Source: Periconia sp. R9002 (lineage: Eukaryota > Ascomycota > Dothideomycetes > Pleosporales > Periconiaceae). From it: 64,000 nucleotides of DNA. The position numbers and the translations under genes are program-made. The stretch lies in the NCBI GenBank assembly GCA_023627715.1, contig JAMAHW010000001.1, positions 62,001 to 126,000 on the forward strand, written 5' to 3'. Positions 39,582 to 64,000 of this stretch are shown one piece after another. The notes below the pieces were generated by a model that ran no database searches, was not told the origin of the DNA, and saw nothing but the letters and a program-made list of their open reading frames with translations. Each line of letters begins with the position of its first letter. The stretch's first letter is position 1.

Positions 39582-40494
39582 AGTAATGCTTTTGTGCGCT
39601 TTGCGTGGTTAAAAAAAGGGAAAAGGAAGTATGGACTCGTCTGTTATGTCGTAACTTCTAATGATAAATAAATAATGTTTCACTTGCGAAATGAGTTGCG
39701 AATAAACGTGAAGACCATTGCGAGATGCCTCTGTGATTCCGCTGGGAAACCCTCAAACAAGCAATGGCTTTCATTGGCGTATCAGGGTTCAACTATAGGC
39801 TGTGTATATGCAACTCTTATAGCACTGTCAGATTGCTAGGAAGAACTAGAGGATAGCCTTTTCATATACGTTTGAGGCGTTCTAGCATGCGTCGCGAACA
39901 TAACTTAATTCTCCAAATAACAAAGTTCTAAAGATCACAAATCAGGGATGGAAAGGGGGATTTGCAGGATGTTAGGCTGTACAAAATAATAAAGGGACTT
40001 TTGAATGCTACTCCATAAGATATGAGATATGAGAAAGGACGGAGGTGACTTATTCTAGCATTAATGATGTATCTATCAAGATAAATCTTCAATATAACTT
40101 TTTGGGCATTTGATGGGGAGTCAATTTTTTAATACTGATGTTACGGTCTCTACGGGGCAACTGGTTGGTCTTTGCCTTAGATGGAATCGCTAGCAGCAAG
40201 AGCACCTGTCGTCACTTCCAAAAAATATGCATTCCTCAACTTTGTCTTCATAAAGCACCACTACATCCTCTGTTGACTGCATGTCTCGTGTCGCATCACG
40301 TATAGAAAGATTGAAGCTAGCACACCTCGGAAAATTCGGCCAATCATTCCTCCGCTGCCCTCAACATTCCTCCGCTAAACTCCGACATCTCGACATCATT
40401 GATATTAATTACCACCACCGCCATTCCTTCCTTACAGTATGTTCGTCACTACCTCCTCGCTCGAACCTCCAGGTCTCATACCCATACCAAAATC
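39582..40494. other. Intergenic
   Basis: AT-rich 3' flank followed by the upstream region of the NAPE-PLD-type gene. In-frame codons upstream of its ATG (from 40399) lack an ATG. No RNA gene or strong repeat seen. Confidence 0.35.
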
Positions 40495-41652
40495 ATGGCT
40501 GCTGCATCTGGTGTGACTTTAACCCCGCTTCCCCCACTCCGCCCGGAATCATATACCTCCCCGCCTCCTCACCATGTTGGGAATCCTCCAACGTCATTTA
40601 AAAATCCCTGGCCCTCATACGCGTCTTCGGGACTGATAGGTCTTTTGAAAACTAAATGGAGCACATCCAAAAATTTTGTGCCGGTACCGACGGATCGCCT
40701 TGGACTGGTGGAGATTCGCAGGCCGGATTGGGGACAGAATAGCCATGGGTTGAAAGCTACTTGGATTGGACATGCCAGCTTTCTGGTCGAAACCACCGCA
40801 ACAAACGGCCACTCGCGAGGTATAAGGATCCTTATAGACCCTATGTTCAGTGATAGGGCCGGTCCATACGGTATGGTAGGACCTGTCCGCTTTTCTCCAC
40901 CACCATGCGACGTTGAGGATTTGCCCGAGGTAGACGCCGTATGCATTAGTCACGACCATTATGACCACCTCGATTCAGAAACCCTTCGAAAACTACTAGT
41001 GAGCCAGAAGGGAGATGTCAAATTTTTCTGTGGATTGCGCGTGAAGCAGGTTCTAGTCGGTTTGGGTGTAGGCATAAAACCCGAACAAGTGACTGAGCTA
41101 GATTGGTGGGACCCGATACACCTAGAAACCGAGGTCGGAAGTGTAGATTTGATATGCACACCCGCACAGCATCGCAGTGGACGAGCACTCTGGAACATTG
41201 ACGGGACATTGTGGTGCAGCTGGATTGTCAAAGAGCCTGATGAGGGCGGCAAAAGACTATTTTTCGCGGGCGACACTGGATACTGCGGAGTGACATCCGA
41301 CGACCAGCCCTCACACCACGAAGCCCCTCATCCTCCGTGCCCAGCATTCGCCGAGATAGGTGAGCTGTACGGACCTTTTGATCTGGCGCTACTGCCCATT
41401 GGCTGCTACCAGCCTCGTTCAGCGCTGTCCGCTCAGCATTCTTCGCCTGACGACTCTGTAGCCATGCACAAAGATATCAAGAGCAAGAGGAGCATCGGCA
41501 TGCATTATGGTACTATAAGAGGCGGTATCAGTGCGAACTTCGAGCCTGTTCTCGAGCCTCCCCAGCGGTTCAAAAAGGTTGCTGAAGCTGAAGGGCTGCA
41601 CTGGGGAGAAGAGATAGGACTATGCGACATTGGAGAAACGGTCACAGTGTGA
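40495..41652 (+). CDS. NAPE-PLD-type metallo-beta-lactamase-fold hydrolase
   Basis: This is a single-exon 385-residue enzyme like mammalian N-acyl-phosphatidylethanolamine phospholipase D and yeast Fmp30, which cleave N-acyl-PE to phosphatidic acid and N-acylethanolamine. The metal-binding motif HDHYDHLD is at residues 153-160 (His153, His155, Asp157, His158). The other expected ligands are His226 in CTPAQHRSGR, Asp260 in FAGDTGYCG and His337 in SIGMHYGT. The upstream TWIGHASFLVET and LIDPMFSDRAGP strings are also family-typical. An N-terminal Pro-rich segment precedes the catalytic domain, and no strong targeting signal is visible. All catalytic residues are intact, so it should be active. 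Confidence 0.92.
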   Translation: MAAASGVTLTPLPPLRPESYTSPPPHHVGNPPTSFKNPWPSYASSGLIGLLKTKWSTSKNFVPVPTDRLGLVEIRRPDWGQNSHGLKATWIGHASFLVETTATNGHSRGIRILIDPMFSDRAGPYGMVGPVRFSPPPCDVEDLPEVDAVCISHDHYDHLDSETLRKLLVSQKGDVKFFCGLRVKQVLVGLGVGIKPEQVTELDWWDPIHLETEVGSVDLICTPAQHRSGRALWNIDGTLWCSWIVKEPDEGGKRLFFAGDTGYCGVTSDDQPSHHEAPHPPCPAFAEIGELYGPFDLALLPIGCYQPRSALSAQHSSPDDSVAMHKDIKSKRSIGMHYGTIRGGISANFEPVLEPPQRFKKVAEAEGLHWGEEIGLCDIGETVTV

Positions 41653-43345: not shown

Positions 43346-44164
43346 TTCCGCTTCTGGAGTGAAGAAATAGAAGGATATGTGGAGGAATATCTGATCTAAA
43401 AATCAAAGTAGAAGCCTTTTATGTGGTGGATTCTGGAGGTGAGGGGCATATGGTTGATAGTTGCGTTGGGAGAGGAAACGGTCTCTTCTATACTTGCGAG
43501 CTGCGTTTGCTTCTGGGCATGTGCGGGTTGCAACTAGGTCAAAGTCAATAAACTCCGAGCAAGGAAACGAATTAGAGGATAAAACATTGGCTATGACGCA
43601 CTGTTCAATCGACCTAGCAAACGACGAAAAATGTTCACGAGACGTATGCTCGACAAACGAATACGTATGGCGTTTGACACAGTACTTGGAGTGAACTTCA
43701 TGATCAACAACCATTGATGGGACCGGCGTATACCAACAAATTGGCAATCCATCTACAAACTCCGAGATATGATCTCTTCAGAGGTGTAGTACTTTGAGAC
43801 CCAAGAGTGTCAAGATAAGTATAACTTCATGAACTGGCTAATTTGGAACGACATGTGAAGTCCTAAAAATTGTTTTGTCCATCTTATTCTGGTCCATAAA
43901 TCAGAGCACGACTTTGTTCTGTTACCAGAAACTCCATTTAAATTAGAATGATAAGCTCCATGCCAAATGAAAACAAGAGAGTTAGGGGAGGAAAGTGGTG
44001 GTGAGTGGAAACGTCAACGCACAGGGAAGGTTTAACCGATAGGATATTATGTAAGCAGACTTGTGGCTCCTCGGCAAGGATTTCTGTTATGGAGCTTAAC
44101 TTATGTCGCTACACTTTTTTTTATACTTCGCGACCTCGCTCAACAACGCCATAGAATTGCAGTT
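43346..44164. other. Divergent intergenic region
   Basis: This is the upstream region of the lysine-rich gene (minus) and the REX1-type gene (plus). A 114-codon minus frame at 43403-43747 has no family features. Sequence 43860-44060 is AT-rich and may hold the REX1 promoter. Confidence 0.35.
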
Positions 44165-46660
44165 ATGGCCAAAAGGAAGCGGGATACTCCGGATGATGAA
44201 CCTGCTGACTTTGGACTGGGTGCAACTCTTGCGCACTTGAAAGATAGCGAGAGCGTCAGTTCGCAAATGAAGAACGAAGCCAACGACGGCAATGAAGGCT
44301 GGACGGTCGTCTCGAAAAAAAGACGGAAGTACGAAGAATATCGCCAGAAGCGCAAAAATAGGCGCCATAGGAAATCCGAGCCTGAAGACCGTGAAAAGTC
44401 TCGCCGTGCTGATTCTTCCGACGAACTATCGGGCGACGACCGCAAACCTCCAGAGCCATCGACCGAACCGTCCTCTGGTTTTGAGAACCCTTTCGCTTCT
44501 AAAACCGACAATGACGAATCCACGCGGCCGATTAACCCATTCAGTAGCCATGAGAAGAGGGCGGAAAGGGAAGCGCAGCACGAAGATGCGCCACCTGATG
44601 GCACGCTGTCTGCTCAGAACACACACAAAAGTAGTCGCCAGAGCGATAGAGAAGCACGTCGTAAAGAGCGCAAGCTTGAGCGGAATTACCCTGCGATTGA
44701 GCATGCCCCTCAGGCTCGCATACAAAGCTTTGTGAAGATCACGGACTTGCAAGCTTTAGCACTGTATATACTTGCTGAAGGCGTCGCTCCCCAATGGGTC
44801 GCTATACGGAACCGCGCAAGCATTCGTCACGTCGTCATGCTTATGGTTCCCGGCCTTGAAATGGGCATGTTCTCTGGCAAGATTCCATTGGAGGGTGACA
44901 CTCAAAGCGTGGATGCATCCAAGGACACCGACCGTGACGATGAGAAGCCCAAGCGCTTGACAGTAGATCCGGATGATTACTATCCGATCAAACTGAAATC
45001 ACATAAGATGCCTGCTGCATTGCAGCCCTTGTCTGAGGTGTTTCCTCATGTTTGGCCCATACGAGCCCAAGCAGATTATCGTGGTGACACATTTCTCAGA
45101 CTACATTCACCAATACATACAATGCTAATGTCGCAAATCCCAAAGAGCAGGGAGGAAAAACAGCTGAAAAAAAGCAAAGACCACAAAGGTCCTCTCCCTC
45201 AGAGTGATAAGCACTGGGAGAACAAGCGTACACCAATCACAGACTACATCGCCAGTCTTGCAGAACAGCAAGAAAACGAATTTGTTGTCCACCCAGCCTG
45301 GTTCTCGAGTCCCGAGGCCAAGGAAAGCGCGTATGTTAGCCGCAAAATCGCTGGTCAGGCATCGGAGCATGGTTGGGTTGATACTAACGTTACATCTCTC
45401 GAGGATGGTGAAGTGAGTGCTGATGAAATGGAATCAGGCAGTGTCACAGCAGGCAGACATGTACTCGCCGTGGACTGCGAAATGTGCAAATCTGATCAAG
45501 ACGAACAAGTACTTACCCGAATTAGCATCACAGATTGGGACGGTAACGTGGTCATGGACAAGCTGGTAAAGCCTGACGTTCCTATCAAAGATTACCTTAC
45601 CCAGTTTTCTGGAATTACACCAGCCATGCTTCAAGATGTAACCACAACTCTCCGAGACATTCAACAAGAGCTGCTGGAGCTTGTGACGCCTCGCACTATC
45701 CTTGTGGGACATTCGCTCAATTCGGATCTCAACGCCCTCAAACTCACACACCCGTTTCTGATTGATACCGGAATCCTCTTCCCACACGTTCGCGGACCCC
45801 CATACAAGCAATCACTCAAATGGCTTGCCCAAAGGTTCTTGCATAAGGAAATCCAGAAGGGTGTAAACGGACACGACAGCATCGAGGACGCTCGCACGGC
45901 TCTGGACTTGGTGAAGCAGAAGTGCGAGCGCGGCCCCACATGGGGTACAAATGAAACAAACGTTGAATCTATTTTCAAAAGGTTAGGACGAGTGAATCGT
46001 CCGCAGTCAGGCGGTGGTACAAGGGCAGGCGCTGTGGTTGATTGGGGCGAACCCAGCCGCGGGCATGGGGCTCAAGCACAAATGTCGATTGCATGTCAAA
46101 GTGATGAGGAAGTAGCCCAAGGCATTCAACACGCCCTGTCTGGCCAATGCCAAAACAAGGAGGGCATATCGGAGAAGGTTGACTTTGTGTGGGGGCGCCT
46201 CCGAGAACTGGAGTTGGCGCGGGGTTGGTGGGATGATGGCAGGACATCGGAGGACGTCGAAGCAATGCGACAATCCGCGTTGGCGAGATTGGGGCTGGGT
46301 GCTTCCCAAGCAGGACAAGAAGGACAAGCAGTTCCCGAAGGGGAAAACGGAAAGGAGAAGAAGGTGGAGGCAGAGGAGGTCACTGGTGCAGCCCTTGGCC
46401 ATGTGGTTTCCCAAACGGTCGACCGCATCGCTCGGATCTACGACGCTTTGCCACGATGCACCGCCCTGATCGTGTACAGTGGTACAGGCGACCCTCGGGA
46501 CATCCGTCGCCTTCAAAACATGCAGCAGACATACCGCCGGGAGTATGCGACAAAGAATTGGGACAAGCTCAGCGTGCAGTGGTCCGACTGGGAGGTTCAG
46601 GAGCTATCCAGTGCGTGCAAGCGCGCTCGGAAAGGAATTGGTTTCATGGTGGTCAAATGA
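44165..46660 (+). CDS. REX1-type DEDDh RNA exonuclease (Rnh70/REXO1 family)
   Basis: This is a nuclear 3'-5' RNA exonuclease of the Rex1/Rnh70 group, which trims 5S rRNA, 5.8S rRNA and tRNA precursor 3' ends. It is one exon of 831 residues. The N-terminal third is basic and Ser/Glu-rich, with a KRKR nuclear signal at the start. The DEDDh domain has VDCEM with Asp437 and Glu439, GHSLNSDLNAL with Asp521, and GHDSIEDAR with His570 and Asp575, so all five catalytic residues are present. KPDVPIKDYLTQFSGIT and SLKWLAQRFL are family strings. The C-terminal extension (from about residue 610) is Gly/Gln-rich and ends with a conserved-looking CTALIVYSGTGDPRD block. ATG 44165 is preferred over upstream non-ATG codons because it starts the basic NLS. 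Confidence 0.92.
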   Translation: MAKRKRDTPDDEPADFGLGATLAHLKDSESVSSQMKNEANDGNEGWTVVSKKRRKYEEYRQKRKNRRHRKSEPEDREKSRRADSSDELSGDDRKPPEPSTEPSSGFENPFASKTDNDESTRPINPFSSHEKRAEREAQHEDAPPDGTLSAQNTHKSSRQSDREARRKERKLERNYPAIEHAPQARIQSFVKITDLQALALYILAEGVAPQWVAIRNRASIRHVVMLMVPGLEMGMFSGKIPLEGDTQSVDASKDTDRDDEKPKRLTVDPDDYYPIKLKSHKMPAALQPLSEVFPHVWPIRAQADYRGDTFLRLHSPIHTMLMSQIPKSREEKQLKKSKDHKGPLPQSDKHWENKRTPITDYIASLAEQQENEFVVHPAWFSSPEAKESAYVSRKIAGQASEHGWVDTNVTSLEDGEVSADEMESGSVTAGRHVLAVDCEMCKSDQDEQVLTRISITDWDGNVVMDKLVKPDVPIKDYLTQFSGITPAMLQDVTTTLRDIQQELLELVTPRTILVGHSLNSDLNALKLTHPFLIDTGILFPHVRGPPYKQSLKWLAQRFLHKEIQKGVNGHDSIEDARTALDLVKQKCERGPTWGTNETNVESIFKRLGRVNRPQSGGGTRAGAVVDWGEPSRGHGAQAQMSIACQSDEEVAQGIQHALSGQCQNKEGISEKVDFVWGRLRELELARGWWDDGRTSEDVEAMRQSALARLGLGASQAGQEGQAVPEGENGKEKKVEAEEVTGAALGHVVSQTVDRIARIYDALPRCTALIVYSGTGDPRDIRRLQNMQQTYRREYATKNWDKLSVQWSDWEVQELSSACKRARKGIGFMVVK

Positions 46661-51874: not shown

Positions 51875-54800
51875 ATGGACGGACATGACGCCCCAGTCCA
51901 CGCCGCAGCGGCGGTCAGTGAGCATGAACAGGAGTTTGACGACGACGACGACGATCATCTGGATGGTGCCGCCGAAGCCCTCTGTCACCGTTGCCAGTGC
52001 CCCGTGGGAGAATTCTTCAATTCGTGGCTCAAAATCACCGCTTCGTAAGATTTCCCTGTTTGTTACTATACGCTGCGCTCCTAACCCAATGCCTACTTCC
52101 GGCCGTAGTGCAATTACATCTATTTCAGCGCCAGAGTCTAATATGACGAGCTAATCGTATCTACTTTAGATGCTATTTGCCTACCCTGCTCGGATCCTAC
52201 AGCTCCCTGCTCACGCCGCACGGCCGCCTGAAGCCGGCGCTGGAAACTGTCTTGAATGAATGGTATGTTTGATAAGCTTGCCCTAGCGGGGGGTGGATGT
52301 TCTTTTTTTTTCTTTCTCTGTCTTTCTCTGGTTTGCTCCATTTTCTTCTTCACTCATCATACATACCGTACCAATAACATACATACATACACTTCCCTCC
52401 GTTGTCCCTTTATCCTGTGGTTGCCTTCCTCTTTGTTACGGCCAGGTTGCACAACTTCCATGTTGGTCTGTCCTTAATTACAGACATTGGCTGTCACTTT
52501 ATTGATCACCAGGCCTGCCGTCACCAATCAATCTGCCAATTTGCCTCTTTCTTATCCATTTTGTTTTTCCTTTCCATTCTCCACTCGATTCAACTGGTCT
52601 TTCCTCGCGCTAGTCCATAATACAACAACGCTGCCCTGCACATAATTAGCACACTTCCGCCGCGCTATACCTTCACCATCTACCAGATACGCCCGTCCGC
52701 ATTCGTCATCGCTGCACACACCTGACACTTTTGCTGATACACCATCTCTCAGTATCATTCAGCCTCTGTCTTGTCCCGGCTGTCAATTACAACTCGGCTT
52801 CGAGGTCGTCAGTGCGCCCCTCCACCAGCAGTCATTCCGGTAAGCACCCATGTTTTCCTTAGCCTGTCCTTAGTTATACCTTATCATTCTTCCCTATATA
52901 TAACCGTATATGTATTACCCTTTGCCGTGGCGTCGGCTTGCAAGGGTCCGTTATGCACTATCTGCAAAAAGGTTATATTCGACAACAACTTATAATATCC
53001 TGCCACATTCCTTCCCGCGTATATTGCTGATTCAATTCTGTCGTTTTTCTCAACAGTGGCCGCGATTTCTTTCATCTCTCTCGCATCCAACTGCGATGCA
53101 AAGTGGCTCCAAACCACTACCGGACTGTTCAACCTCACGTAGGCACAATCTCCGGTCCATCGTCACCAACTATTAATCATTCGCCCGTTTCCGCCACAAG
53201 TCGCTTGCCTCCATCACCAGACAAACAAGCCATGGAAGTCGATTCGCGACCTGCACCCCCATTGTCGGGACCACGCCACCACTACCAACATCACATTGAT
53301 CAACATCACCACCACCACCATCATCACCAGCAACAACAACAACAGCAATCGAGTCACCATCAACATCAGCCATTGCACCAGGTAGAATCTCGCAGACCCT
53401 CACTGCCTCAGCCATCACCTCGCTCCCCTCCTGCGCCTCTCCCCTCTTCCAATGCCATTTCTCAGCCATCTCCAAGTAGTCAACCACTCCCGTTGCCCTC
53501 GCCGGTGGTTGGTGTGAAGCCGGTTCAGCAGCAGCATGTGCAGCAACCCGTCAAGGATAACAATACGAATGTAACCAGCCGCACACGAGAGCTAGCACCA
53601 GTCACGAGCTCGCATTCCATTTCACCTACCGAGCCTCGTAATAATGGCCAAACATATCCCCGGACCTCACAAGAAGTCCAGCTGGACGCCATCGACCGGT
53701 TGCAGACACAAATTTCACAAAATAGCAGTGCTTTGGTTGTGCATAGCCGCGATATGCGACGTTACGAAGAGACACTACAGCATCAAGATGAAAGCTTCCG
53801 GCGTGAGTTGCAAACCCAGTACCACCATCAGAATGGCGAAATTCGACGAATCGACGAGGCCGTTGGAAGGCTGCAGCTCGAAGTGCGAGGTATTCGTGAG
53901 TCAATGGACACGCTCTCGCGTGAAGTGCGGCGAGGGGCAGCTGCAAGTCAAGCTGCAGCCCCATCTGTGAGTGCCCAAGATTCTGCACTAGAACTCATGG
54001 CACAACAAGTAGCTGTCATCTCTCATCGCACCAATGAGATTGATACTTTGAAAATTACCATCGAAATTATGAAGAACAAGATTCAACGACTTGAAGACGC
54101 CGCTGCCACTCCTGCTCCTGTACCTGCACCTGCATTACCACCAGTTGCGAGCCGACCATATGCTTCGCCGCCTGCATCCCACACTCAACCAGCTCATGCA
54201 GCTGCACCATACCAGCCGCCATCTGCACAACCCACCAAGCCTGTACTCACATCTACCGCCATTCAAAGACAGCCTTCCTATCAATCACATCATTCTCATG
54301 GAAGCCCGATGATGGTTGCTACTCCTGAAGCCCCTGCAAGAGCAGAGCTTCCACCGTCCCAAACATGGGCTACAGTTAACGGCCCTACCAAGCGTGTCAA
54401 TGGTTTCGATAGCCCACAAGAGTCATTAGCACAAGCTCCTGGCTCACCACCGAAGCGCCTCAAACTCGCGCCTATTGAACCTCGTGGCACATATGCTAGC
54501 TCAGGGGCACAATTGCCTTCTTCATACGAATATGCAGACAGTGATTCTGAGGCCGCGAGGGCGCCGTCTCACACGTATGGTCCAGCACCGCAGCCTCACC
54601 CATCTCACCAAGCCCCCGAGGCCACATTGGCTTCCCAACATCAACACGCAACATTCGCGTCTTACAGCAACCAAGACGCACACTCGGATGACGGTTGGCG
54701 ACACGAATCTCAACGACTCATGGAAATGCGTACTCCCCGCGGCCGTGGTCGGGGAGGAGGTGGACCAGGAAGTCGCGGAGGACGCGTTCGCAAGAGTGCA

Positions 54801-55709
54801 GCCCATGTCCACCCCATCGGCACTCCAGAGTGGGAGAGGGATAGTTGGCAGGGTGCGTCTCAAGTAAGTCCGGATGGCTACTACATCATGTCACGTCCCA
54901 CACGGGGTATTGTTCGACGTGGAAGCGGTGGTGGAAACTCGTCACGTGGAGGACGTCCTCCGAGTTCGCATGGGCGCACGATAAGCTTAGGCCTCCAGGG
55001 AGTCACTGCCGGCGTAGGTATTGGACTACCCGCAGATCCCTATGCACACACTAAGAAAACAAGGAGTAAGCCGGTGCGCAACGCAGACGGCATCCTCATT
55101 CGTAAAGATGGCCGGCCTGATATGCGCTCGCAATCCTCGGCCGCCAACCTGCGAAAAGTCCACGCACGGAAGGAAGATGGGAGCCCTGGTCCTGACTCCA
55201 CTCCATCCAATCTTCGGCAAGCATCAAGCGCTGATGCTGAAACACCGAGTCCTCGGGAATACAGTGGTCAAGACATGGGTGACAGCATCGAAAAGAGACA
55301 CAGCCATGTTCTACATAAGATGTTTCCAGACGGCATCGAAAAATCAAGACAGGAACACGACTATGCACGCAAGGTCTTCGAAGAGGATCAAGATCACACA
55401 GTCCAGCCGCGAACGCAGAACCACCTACACGCTAGCCAATATTCCCAGGAATCAAAAGCTCGCTACTCGAAGATCAAAGATGAACATAGCAACCCAGGCA
55501 GTGTAGAGGGCAACGGCGATGTCGACATGGATCGTCCAGAGGACCAAGCAGATGATGAAGGTCAGACCCCAGGGGGCCAGAGCGACATCTCAGGTCACGA
55601 AAGCCAGTATGACCCCGTGAACGAAGCTCGACGGACACCTCCGGCGACAAAAGAGTCTGCTCAAGCGACGAATTCTGCGGACCTCAATTCTGAGCCGCCC
55701 TCGGCCTAA
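51875..55709 (+). CDS. Mis18/Yippee-like domain protein with coiled coils and RG-rich segments
   Basis: Exons are 51875-52044, 52170-52262, 52753-52839 and 53057-55709, giving exactly 1000 residues. The N-terminal 131 residues, joined from all four exons, contain CHRC (37-40) in CHRCQCPVGEFFNSW, then SCPGCQLQLGFEVV (Cys95, Cys98) and GRDFFHLSRIQL. The order (CxxC, W, CxxC plus LG-aromatic, RD-FF-L) matches the Mis18/Yippee zinc fold; human Mis18alpha has the same arrangement. Mis18 recruits CENP-A loading factors to centromeres. Unlike known short Mis18 proteins, this one continues with His8-Gln7 tracts (200-214), coiled coils (about 325-412 and 425-467), RG-rich runs (about 675-700 and 737-758), a basic conserved-looking segment (about 792-823) and an acidic tail. 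The first three introns are 125, 490 and 217 nt. A centromere role is inferred from the domain only. Confidence 0.8.
53304..53348 (+). repeat. Coding CAY/CAR repeat encoding His8-Gln7
   Basis: A run of histidine and glutamine codons lies inside exon 4 of the Mis18-like gene, encoding eight His then seven Gln (residues 200-214). Such tracts are prone to length change by slippage. Confidence 0.85.
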
Positions 55710-59593: not shown

Positions 59594-62500
59594 TCAACAC
59601 AATCGCCTCAATGTCTCCACTAGTGTCTTGACCCGTTCAACACCCCATTCGGCACCCAGGCCTTCCACAGCCTTACTCTGTTCTGCGTCGCTAAGGTACA
59701 GAAATCGCTCAATCAACTCTCCGTCGACGAATCGCTCCGGCTCCTCGCTTTCACGGACCTGGTTCTTGAAAGCACGGAATTTGGCAAAGGGAACATCGCC
59801 CGGTGTGGCGACCAACTGTGCTACGTTGTATTGGAGGGTCATGAGAAAATTCTGGTGGGTTGGGGCAATGAGGGCGAAAAGATAGATGGATCCTTCAACC
59901 TGTACATAAAGTCAATCGGGAGCTAAGTGAGGATTATAAATGAGACTTACTGTTGCCATGAACGCCCTTGGAACAACAGCGGCGTCTGGCGCGGTAGCTA
60001 CGTCGATTCTCCGTATCCGATTGACCATTTCGCCCAGCTGCATTTCCGCACTCACATTCAGTCGGCGTCTGTCGTCTTCCATGACGCCGTTTGGATCGCG
60101 GTATAATATGGCAAGATTGCCTTCGGCGTCACTTTCCAGATATGTGTTCTCATCGACTTCGGCAACAGCTGTGGCCCACGTGGTTTGATAATGTCGCGAA
60201 ATTTCTGATAGAGTGTCTGGAAGACCGTTTTCGCCGCGTGAGAACTGCACTACGACAAGTGACTTCATAAGGTCTGCGACGGCGATTATGTTTCCATTTA
60301 CAGTAATGTCGATGGGTGCTGTGGAGCATCTGAAAGTCGCTGCTTTGACAAGCTCAGGCCTACTTTCCGTCCGAAACTCGACATTGTAGACGACGATGGT
60401 CTTGATGAGCGCTGCTACGATGCGACCCTCGCACATGGCAAGACATCTGCATCCGCCCCGGACTGCGAGTTCTGTGACTAATTTGAGCTGCCGATCCTGT
60501 GTGACTTCAAGTATGAGTATGCGACCCCGCTCAGCAGTAGCATTCTGATCGTCCAGATATGCAGTGCCAACGACGAAACGCTCTGCCATGTTGCCAGACC
60601 CGTCAGGTAGCTCACAACGCATTACGCTCTCTACAAGCTCTTCCTCCTTAAGAGGCCATGTGTCTAGCTCTTTGAATTGTATTTCATCGACAAGCTTGAA
60701 GTGACTTAAAAGCACTTCTTCTCCACCCTTCAGTATCCTTTTGATTGTCCCAAGGCCAAATGCTTTGAGACTAGGTGAGTATGCTATCCTTCGTACTGTT
60801 TCATCCACTTTGAGCGTTTGGACGTGTGTTGTCCGCTCAGTATCCACTAATGCGATTCGCAAATCTTCTGATGTAGCAATGGCTACGGATCCAGGATATG
60901 CGTTCGAGTTGAAAGGGCATACTGCCGTTGCCTTCTCTGCAGTAACAGCAGAATAAACGAGACGGCCCTCAGATCCATAGATCAGCGAGGGGTGCTCGCA
61001 TGTAGCAAAAACATTGCAAACACCATTCCCGCGGGGTAGCGCCCGGAAACCTGCTTCTCGCGTACCGAGAACTATGCTCTTCCTTCCGGAAAGCTCGTTC
61101 GTAGCTGTATCGAATGAGTACGTGACGACATTGCCATCAGCCATGGCCGCGAAGAGGGTTGGCGGCTGGTCATGGAAGATTTGGGTAAGAAGTAGTGAGC
61201 GCGGCACAGAATCCTCGGATATCTGTATGGTAGAGACAACTTCCAAACTGTCTACCTTGCAAACAGAGAGTTGAGAGCTTTTCCAGAAACCTAAGAAGCA
61301 AATCGCGCTAGACTCAGGTGGAAGCGCAACGCAGGCAACTTGGCTGTCGGCACCGAATGTTCTCTCAACGTAATTGTTCAAGCCGGTTTCGGTATTCATG
61401 ATGGCTACTGTGACACCGCCCAAGGATATAATCACATGACTTTTATTAGTGTACGCTGCCGTGATGGACTGATTATTGCTTGGAGCCCATGTATGGTCAA
61501 CCATACCACTCTCCAGGTTCGAGATTTGAACTTGCTTATCGGTGACCTGAATCAGTCGCCCTTGCGGCAGATTGGATGCAGAGAGTGTTGTCTGTAGGGT
61601 TTGAAGACCAGCAAAGTCCTCTACCTCCTCCACTTCTCCGGAGGGGTCAAATCTAAAGATGCGCGATTCGTTCACGAAGGCGACCAGGAGAGTATCGACA
61701 AGATCAGAGTGGCCATCCGAACTCAAGCTGAAGATATCAGAAATATGCTCCATCTCGCCCAGCACTCCCAGGTCCTCGAGGCCGACCCCGCTACGGACAC
61801 TTCTTAAACTGCCATCCTGATATGCGCCGCTTCCGGTGACAATTCGAGCTTGTCCTGATGAATATTCGTTCGCCTGGCCTTCGCCGGATCTATTGCCCAT
61901 ATCCATTATTGTGAAATCTAGAACAGGCGCAATGTTGGAGAATGTTTGTACAATTTCCATGGACTTTTCGGAGATCCTAATCACTTGAGAGTCTCCTTGA
62001 TGTGACCCGACGAAAACATATCCGGCATCCAGATATATCAAGACAGATGCCCGAGAAGTTTCTCCAATTATGTCGAGCTTCCACGAGCGCACTTGCTTCT
62101 CCTCATCTAGTTCAAGCATGAAAAGATAGAGCCGACCATAGTCGTCCGCCAAAATAAAACGCTGGGCATCGACCTGCTCCCATGCCACGAATATAGTAGC
62201 ATCTTCCAAGGGCTCCGTCGTTATCTCTTTGGTTTGGTCGTTGTAGTATCCAATTGAAGTCTCTCCGATGATTATCAGACCATATGTGGGGCCGTCAATA
62301 GGTATGAGGTGACTGGCGCCGAGCTCCAATTCTCCCTGGTAATTTTCACCTTCCCCAAGCTCGACAGAATCTCCGCCTTCAAAAGCAAGTTCTCGTAATT
62401 TCAGTCTGATTGTGGAATGTGTGTCTTCGTAGAGTAATGCCAATCTTGGCTTTTCCTCGTAGGTCCGCGGACGGAGAAATGCAGATGAACGAACAAACAT

Positions 62501-63057
62501 CTCGGACAAGCGACAGGGCTGAGGCTCGCCCAAGTGGGCAATGTCTGGCTCTTGCTTCCTCTTCTTTCCTCGCTGAACCAGAGGTATTACAGTTATTATG
62601 CCTTCGTACACCTCCACTGTCATGAATCGCCCGGACGGGTCAACATGGCATCGTTCGCCGGTCTGTGATTCTCTCGCGGCATTGTCGGCAACGCTTTCGA
62701 ACGTTTTTTCGGTCTGAACTTGTTTCTTGTCGGGGTTCCAAGATACAGTGAAATATACGAAACGATCTGTTCCTACGAAGAGGTGGTCGGTCGGCGAGAG
62801 GGCAGGGCGGAGCTTTTGCAGCATCGTAATCTTGCCATAGACGACTCTCGAGTGTTGCAGAGATAGACCGTCGGCATTGTGGGTATAAAATTCGAGGCGA
62901 TTTGATTTACTGCAAGCAAAGTCAATTGGTGTGATGGCATATTTGAGTATATTTGCCCTGCTCACGCAACTACTAAACAATCCTCTGCAGTTAGGAAGTT
63001 CAATTTGAGGGCATGTCGAATACTGCTAGGTCGGTGAATGGGAGCAACGTAGGCCAT
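59594..63057 (-). CDS. DDB1: DNA damage-binding protein 1 (Ddb1), CUL4 ubiquitin ligase adaptor
   Basis: Ddb1 is the three-propeller adaptor that links Cul4 to substrate receptors in nucleotide-excision repair and cell-cycle control. Exons on the minus strand are 63057-62966, 62909-59951 and 59899-59594, giving 1118 residues, close to the family's usual length of about 1140. The start MAYVAPIHRPSSIRHALKLN and the spliced LVVAKSNRLEFY match Ddb1 rather than Rse1 or Cft1. Other signatures are GKITMLQKLRPALSPTDHLFVGTDR, TIYNVEFR-like IVVYNVEFRTESRPELVKAA and DLMKSLVVVQF. Both introns interrupt at expected places (the first between VVA and KSN, the last before VEGSIYLFALI). No damage is seen. It is divergent from the RPC5 gene. 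Confidence 0.95.
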
Positions 63058-63418
63058 GTTGGAGATGCGCCTGGGTATCTACACAGCTTCGTACGGTGCC
63101 TATAAGAGAGATATTAAGGTGAAGGAAAGTGAAAGCGTGTGTAAGCGGTTATTGCAAGTGTAGAATTGATGTCTGGTACATTGATGTAGGCAGGCCTATC
63201 GCCGTCATTATAGACGCACGGACCATGAGCAGCTTACTAGTTAGCAACGCGACGGCGGGACGACGCGGGGCAGCTTGCTCCGCTGCCTTTCTCTCGCGGA
63301 CAACTTTTTTTTCGCGGAAGCAACACTTCCCCATACCGCCACCTTTCTACTCACACAATGGCTCGTACGATACCCGTGAAGCAATCTTGAATACTCTGCA
63401 CAGCTCTTGCTAACTACT
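63058..63418. promoter_or_regulatory. Probable bidirectional promoter of DDB1 and RPC5
   Basis: A 361-bp gap separates the two divergent starts. It is GC-moderate without an obvious TATA box. Dual use is inferred from arrangement only. Confidence 0.45.
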
Positions 63419-63971
63419 ATGTCTTTTTCCACAGCAACCGCAGCAGATGCGGACGAGGACGATCCCGTTATTAATGAGTACGATGTCTTCATCACTCCCG
63501 AGATGCAAGAGCAGCTTTATGTCCTGCAATACCTCAACCGCCCGCCCTCTGATAGCCTCACCGAGCAGACTGGAACAAAACCTTCCTCGTTGCGTATAAA
63601 ACCGCAGTCCGGTTTCGTCGAAGTAGATGTGCCGGTGGACATTCGGAATAATTTCAATCGCCAGATGGGTGTTACATGGGGCGAGGCGCTGCGCAAGACG
63701 AAGCAAATCGGCCAAAAGGCTTACGGTATCGCAGCAGGCTTTGAAAGAACAATGCCACGTCCACCCAGGCCAGCGCCGGCTACGTCTGGTGACAACCGAC
63801 CAACTCCAACCCCAGCCCCAGCTCTAGACGACGACAACTATGATGATTACATTATCAATTTTGAGGATGCGAACGAGAAGGGACACGTTCTCAATACGCA
63901 AACTTACGGAGGTCAGATTCAGCAAGACGACAACAGAGGGCCAAACTACATGCTAGGCACATTCAGGAACA
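63419..63971 (+). CDS. RNA polymerase III subunit Rpc5/Rpc37, first exon, 3'-partial
   Basis: This is the first exon of the Pol III subunit that helps termination and reinitiation on tRNA and 5S genes (Rpc5/Rpc37, 'Sin-like' family). ATG 63419 is followed by an acidic N-terminus (DADEDDPVINEYDVFITPEM), then YVLQYLNRPPSDSL, GFVEVDVPVDIRNNFNRQMG and NYMLGTFRN, which fit the family. The frame reads to a stop at 63998-64000, but a GTAAGA donor at 63972 immediately after the FRN codons suggests the apparent tail lies in an intron and the rest is outside the window. The family usually continues after GTFRN with an LHLTP-type block not present here. Confidence 0.82.
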
Positions 63972-64000
63972 GTAAGAATACTCGCGTGCGTGCTAGATGA

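Follow-up and report, generated by a model that had tools for sequence, protein, structure and literature searches.

The gene described here lies on the forward strand, at positions 51875 to 55709, of a 64,000-nucleotide stretch of the Periconia sp. R9002 genome (contig JAMAHW010000001.1, positions 62,001 to 126,000), which is hereafter called the window and in which all its positions are numbered. Its four exons join into 3003 bases, coding for 1000 residues plus the stop codon, and all three introns are of the GT-AG type. Upon joining of the exons, the motifs C37-x2-C40, C95-x2-C98, LG and RDFF became visible at the places given in an earlier note, which had been made from the letters of this DNA, and residues 34-131 were found to make up a Mis18-type (MeDiY) domain.

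Homologues and splice junctions

A set of 145 homologous proteins was collected, 90 by a first search (8000 candidates scored, with words drawn from the first 500 residues) and 55 by a search with the basic block near the C-terminus, for which 120 of 168 matches were listed, 55 of those 120 being new. Among the matches listed, the nearest protein was from Periconia digitata (Pleosporales), with 77% identity over 96%. The source organisms are, as we take it, Pleosporales or near Dothideomycetes; for Periconia and Delitschia the looked-up taxonomy gives Pleosporales, and for Zopfia Dothideomycetes incertae sedis. The domain was detected end to end in 29 of the 145 proteins by one pattern and both of its zinc knuckles in 35 by another, with neither in 81. 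In an alignment of 24 proteins, rows P0004 and P0043 are without part of the domain.

The three junctions had been claimed to be constrained, and another acceptor for intron 2 to create a stop. Of the 12 AGs that follow the intron-2 donor, ten indeed lead out of frame or into a stop codon; besides 52753, however, the acceptor at 52813 also keeps the whole frame open, although it would delete the second CxxC. In-frame alternatives are present for introns 1 and 3 as well, and thus the joins are not settled by the frame alone; it is the relatives that settle them. Across junction 1, all 32 short relatives, nearly all of them apparently raw readings of open reading frames (ORFs), are contiguous. 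At the intron-2 donor, 27 of these 32 have as their last residue the very Trp that results when the donor is read through, four continue past this Trp into the intron, and one (P0146) is an annotated model; a separate count of the W pattern gave 30/32. Twenty-three proteins start a little ahead of the RDFF part. As judged by eye, 16 of them include residues read from intron 3, and every one of these carries Ser or Arg (an AGN codon being possible) directly before (G/S/N)-R-(D/E). The rest are five spliced models and two proteins (P0019, P0144) that deviate in having Cys at this place. The observation of domain exons hidden across introns was confirmed.

Sequence and predicted fold of the Mis18-type domain

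A profile built from 17 relatives scored the domain in the window at 156.7 bits, as against 10.8 bits for the best of 2000 shuffles, indicating that the match is not due to chance. When the domain profile was compared with the PDB at E<=10, Mis18 chains only were obtained (5j6p, 0.019; 5hj0, 0.025; 7sfz, 0.17), and the same Mis18-only outcome was repeated with a further alignment (A4) as the query. In the control, the genome's own Yippee gene retrieved YPEL5 at 7e-14 and no Mis18. Three signatures were then compared. At the seventh residue ahead of the second knuckle, the window protein, Schizosaccharomyces pombe Mis18 and human Mis18 share a Cys, whereas YPEL5 and both Yippees of this genome have His; RD before the last strand aligns with human Mis18-alpha, whereas Yippee has G-K/R there; and G-E/D..N-S/A-W aligns with S. 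pombe Mis18. Among the 29 domain-complete relatives, the Cys was found in 28, R-D/E in 27, and the N-motif, the pattern of which was written to fit the family, in all 29. Both knuckles are C-x2-C in the window; the second (52772-52783) is Cx4C in 18 of the 29 relatives, Cx2C in eight and of another form in three. PF03226 was matched at E<=1 by 17 of 18 family members. By sequence, the presence of a Mis18-type domain in this protein was borne out.

The predicted fold was examined on relatives. A first structure model had a poor domain (10-residue means 28-75), with no Foldseek match at E<=10 and helices only by VIA. The model of the relative P0012 (not the chain of the window itself) has a domain with a predicted local distance difference test score (pLDDT) of about 87-96, and the Yippee/Mis18 beta-sandwich on which the earlier note had staked its proposal was recovered: Mis18 chains lead the ranking (Foldseek ranks 1-6, VIA ranks 1-4), with YPEL5 close behind.

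Conserved segments outside the domain

The coiled coil, the arginine-glycine (RG) runs and the conserved basic segment noted earlier were all found (Table 1). In AlphaFold2 models of relatives, the first long helix corresponds to residues 356-447 of P0001 (10-residue means 67-96) and 325-419 of P0012, and the second to 461-504 of P0001 (means 76-88) and 433-478 of P0012. These helices are predicted with confidence, yet far from the domain; in the heptad test, 99 and 252 of 5000 shuffles scored at or above the two helices, which supports a coiled coil weakly. The C-terminal helices have means of 66-92 in P0001 and 56-90 in P0012.

Table 1. Exons, introns and protein segments of the gene, by position in the window
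Feature	Position	Strand	Basis
Exon 1 (start codon, acidic N-terminal tail, first zinc knuckle C37-x2-C40, G-E-x2-N-S-W motif)	51875..52044	+	conserved in alignments of relatives
Intron 1, 125 bases, GTAAGA...TTTAG	52045..52169	+	short relatives contiguous across junction, 32/32
Exon 2 (middle of Mis18-type domain)	52170..52262	+	
Intron 2, 490 bases, GTATGT...CTCAG	52263..52752	+	donor position common to relatives; acceptor 52753
Exon 3 (signature Cys88, second zinc knuckle C95-x2-C98, LGF)	52753..52839	+	
Intron 3, 217 bases, GTAAGC...CAACAG	52840..53056	+	acceptor position agrees with ORFs of relatives
Exon 4 (RDFF domain end, linkers, coiled coil, RG runs, basic block, C-terminal helices, stop)	53057..55709	+	
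Long helix / coiled coil 1, residues about 321-412	53667..53942	+	AlphaFold2 helices in relatives, aligned onto window
Helix / coiled coil 2, residues about 424-467	53976..54107	+	AlphaFold2 helices in relatives
Nuclear localisation signal (NLS)-like SPPKRLKL with cyclin-dependent kinase (CDK)-type SPxK site, residues 580-587	54444..54467	+	putative function
RG-rich run 1	54726..54806	+	
RG-rich run 2	54894..54971	+	
Basic near-invariant block, residues 783-822	55053..55172	+	commonest residue mean 0.93, 24 proteins
C-terminal conserved helical motif, residues 862-893	55290..55385	+	conservation 0.71; helices in relatives

Conservation, expressed as the mean share of the commonest residue in the 24 proteins (P0001 numbering), is 0.30 for the N-terminal tail, 0.70 for the domain, 0.43-0.50 for the linkers, 0.68 for the coiled coil and 0.77 for the RG part, the values for the block and the C-terminal motif being those of Table 1. 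The block holds RKDGRPD in 145/145 proteins and its extended core in 144/145, 55 of the 145 having been found via the block itself; its pattern is a hydrophobic ILI/VLI stretch followed by R-K and then a helix. The NLS-like pattern is present in 105/145 proteins. For the block and the C-terminal motif, no relative was found among PDB sequences at E<=10. With the full-length profile, four weak PDB matches fell in RG-rich or coiled-coil stretches (E 0.006-0.29) and were rejected; one of the four, to the kinetochore protein Spc25 (E 0.048), is most likely coiled-coil chance. A CCDC22 coiled coil was rejected as well, its 18.6 bits lying below the cut-off of 39.2. In the linker after the domain, at 53300-53350 (residues about 199-214), His and Gln codons were observed in runs.

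Elsewhere in the genome, at C146:41081-41212, the basic block occurs once more by itself, as a copy of 44 codons with 33/44 residues identical. Its base differences from the gene by codon position are 6, 9 and 27, indicating that the copy diverged mostly under protein constraint. It was rejected as a full paralogue, consisting of the block only, with no other part of the gene within the 9.5 kb examined; it is a relic or part of another gene. The neighbouring ORFs of the window encode, by their look, what we take to be a metallo-beta-lactamase-fold protein (40321-41652), an RNA exonuclease (44036-46660), a CPSF-A/DDB1-type protein (59912-63025, reverse strand) and an RNA polymerase III subunit (63380-64000).

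Assignment and comparison with known Mis18 systems

On balance, we regard the protein as the probable, though by no means certain, Mis18 of Pleosporales, which as a scaffold in the nucleus would license the loading of CENP-A, the centromeric histone. Its zinc-bound domain would be the partner-docking module, and the coiled coil at about residues 321-467 may stand in for the short helix found at the C-terminus of Mis18 in yeast and humans, and cause the protein to oligomerise. Entry into the nucleus or to the centromere could be timed by the NLS-like motif and its CDK site, and contacts with chromatin, with RNA or with the histone chaperones Mis16/Scm3 may be made by the RG runs together with the basic block. 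One long chain would then cover the jobs split in fission yeast among Mis18, Mis19/Eic1 and Mis20/Eic2, with the extra conserved segments possibly supplying adaptors. A gene for Scm3 is present in the same genome, of 43 Mb (C88:64706-64858, 71.9 bits); its domain lies inside an 823-codon open frame, and thus the CENP-A chaperone looks long here too. An extended form of this proposal, in which the Pleosporales fused the adaptor job into Mis18, with the block as a Mis16/RbAp46-48-binding strand like site A of Mis19, the C-terminal motif like site C, and chaperones recruited without Mis19 or KNL2, seems to us improbable; the likeness was drawn from a description in PMC6677171 and is not a sequence match.

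Several observations weigh against the assignment as Mis18. The individual PDB E-values are weak (0.019-0.17). The full chain scores 22.7 bits as against the PF03226 cut-off of 26.6, and the domain reaches 28.1 when cut out alone. By hhalign, the genome's own Yippee on contig C3 (prob 85) is favoured over the S. pombe Mis18 piece (prob 52), the former aligning over the C-terminal 44 columns only, without gaps, and the latter over 84 columns. In a local test, Mis18 at 18.1 and 16.9 bits was barely ahead of the own Yippee at 16.2, even with the S. pombe and human pieces trimmed to the stretch already aligned, which favours them. The S. pombe RD lies two residues ahead of the family RD in both tool alignments, and the human RD aligns with the latter only via a two-residue gap. 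Residue by residue (numbering per PMC4818781; V22 and Y114 outside the aligned stretch), the window protein has I and V in place of the S. pombe pocket residues Y74 and Y90 and P in place of the dimer residue I31; T105 and S107 correspond to F and H in the tool alignment or to H and S when aligned on RD. These pocket and dimer residues belong to the yeast mechanism and not to the definition of the Mis18 fold; the replacements of Y74, Y90 and I31 indicate that the mode of partner binding or dimerisation should differ.

The same replacements would suit a Mis18-fold paralogue acting away from the centromere, as a chromatin or RNA-binding factor in which the RG runs and the block do the main work. 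Both of these are more conserved than the domain (0.77 and 0.93 as against 0.70), and reuse of the fold has a precedent in FAM72 proteins, which employ it with RPA according to PMC11377751. The fold and most signatures nevertheless favour Mis18, the coiled coil is kept, and no other Mis18 candidate was seen in the genome, though a short second Mis18, if split by introns, could be missed in the genome scan; the search with the S. pombe piece was empty but, having no positive control, shows nothing. We therefore hold the paralogue to be possible but unlikely. An adaptor of the CTLH/GID ubiquitin ligase, of Yippee/YPEL5 type, is more doubtful still, and markedly so. YPEL5 follows closely in the fold ranking: the best Mis18 chain is 1.5 Z above the best YPEL5 chain, but S. 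pombe Mis18 is only 0.7 above, a tie by the rule of the tool. Against this adaptor speak the Cys, RD and N-S-W signatures and the two separate Yippee loci of the genome, C3:200855-201241, which resembles YPEL5, and C76:206323-206541. The Yippee motifs G-(R/K)-A-(Y/F)-L, H-x6-C-x2-C and G-K/R before the last strand are present in both loci and in YPEL5, but were absent from the window protein and, on inspection by eye, from the 17 relatives aligned with it. Yippee or cereblon membership was accordingly rejected on signatures, control searches and fold ranking. Finally, the true protein might begin at 53232 (MEVDSR), the domain exons belonging elsewhere, as two genes or an artefact. The corresponding residue (ME[VI][DE]..) is indeed the start in 12 of the 90 proteins, including the NCBI models P0003, P0025, P0027, P0072 and P0079, but domain and tail stand in a single model in other relatives, among them P0001, P0005, P0010 and P0012, and each junction agrees with the readings from relatives. 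In Karstenula, the absent N-terminus appears as the separate model P0146, located on a contig of equal length, and the halves look like one annotation-split gene. A start at 53232 is hence most improbable.

The suggestion that the factor is undescribed stands in part. Six of the listed homologues (P0007, P0012, P0013, P0102, P0105 and P0140) already carry the PF03226 label, and individual members bear UniRef names derived from Yippee/Mis18 or Mis18 (P0140, 'Mis18 domain-cont...'), but literature searches returned no description of a long Mis18-domain family and none joining Mis18 with Pezizomycotina; Mis18 is not mentioned in PMC5579357. The database name of P0070 and P0134, Fe-S assembly co-chaperone, is most likely a wrong transfer. 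In these moulds the role of Mis18 is probably filled by this protein, and a long, conserved Mis18 that carries a near-invariant module offers a definite candidate, with segments that can be tested, in a large mould group.

Mis18 acts far upstream in CENP-A loading and its partners vary, being M18BP1 in animals and Mis19/Mis20 plus Sad1 in fission yeast. Human Mis18-alpha and Mis18-beta (7sfz, 9a8g) are short, with 233 and 229 residues, and work with M18BP1/KNL2, whereas the window protein has 1000 residues; a search of the genome for SANTA/KNL2 (M18BP1) was empty and, having no positive control, uninformative. YPEL5 (8qbn, 9rsc, 9rsd) differs in that it has His where the signature Cys stands, G-R in place of RD, a GRAFL motif and a chain of 121 residues, and the thalidomide-binding (CULT) domain of cereblon is a weaker match and keeps other domain company. 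S. pombe lacks M18BP1 and recruits Mis18 via Sad1 and CENP-C, as stated in PMC7618776; Mis18 is linked in this yeast to Mis16 via Mis19 (PMC6677171) and is required for centromere localisation of Scm3 (PMC4818781). PMC10327204 reports Mis18, Mis16 and Scm3 as conserved in Pneumocystis. Eic1 (Mis19) and Eic2 were described in 2014, in PMC4043117, as not identified outside Schizosaccharomyces, and PMC4222959 mentions one putative protein of budding yeast and a plant protein that resemble Mis19 to a limited extent. S. pombe Mis18 (5hj0, 5j6p) has 194 residues, with a helix directly after the domain (121-168). According to PMC4818781, its MeDiY domain dimerises, the next helix makes tetramers, and its Lys/Arg-rich tail is said to be unique to it. 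The window protein keeps the order described there for known Mis18, the MeDiY domain first and a predicted helical region later.
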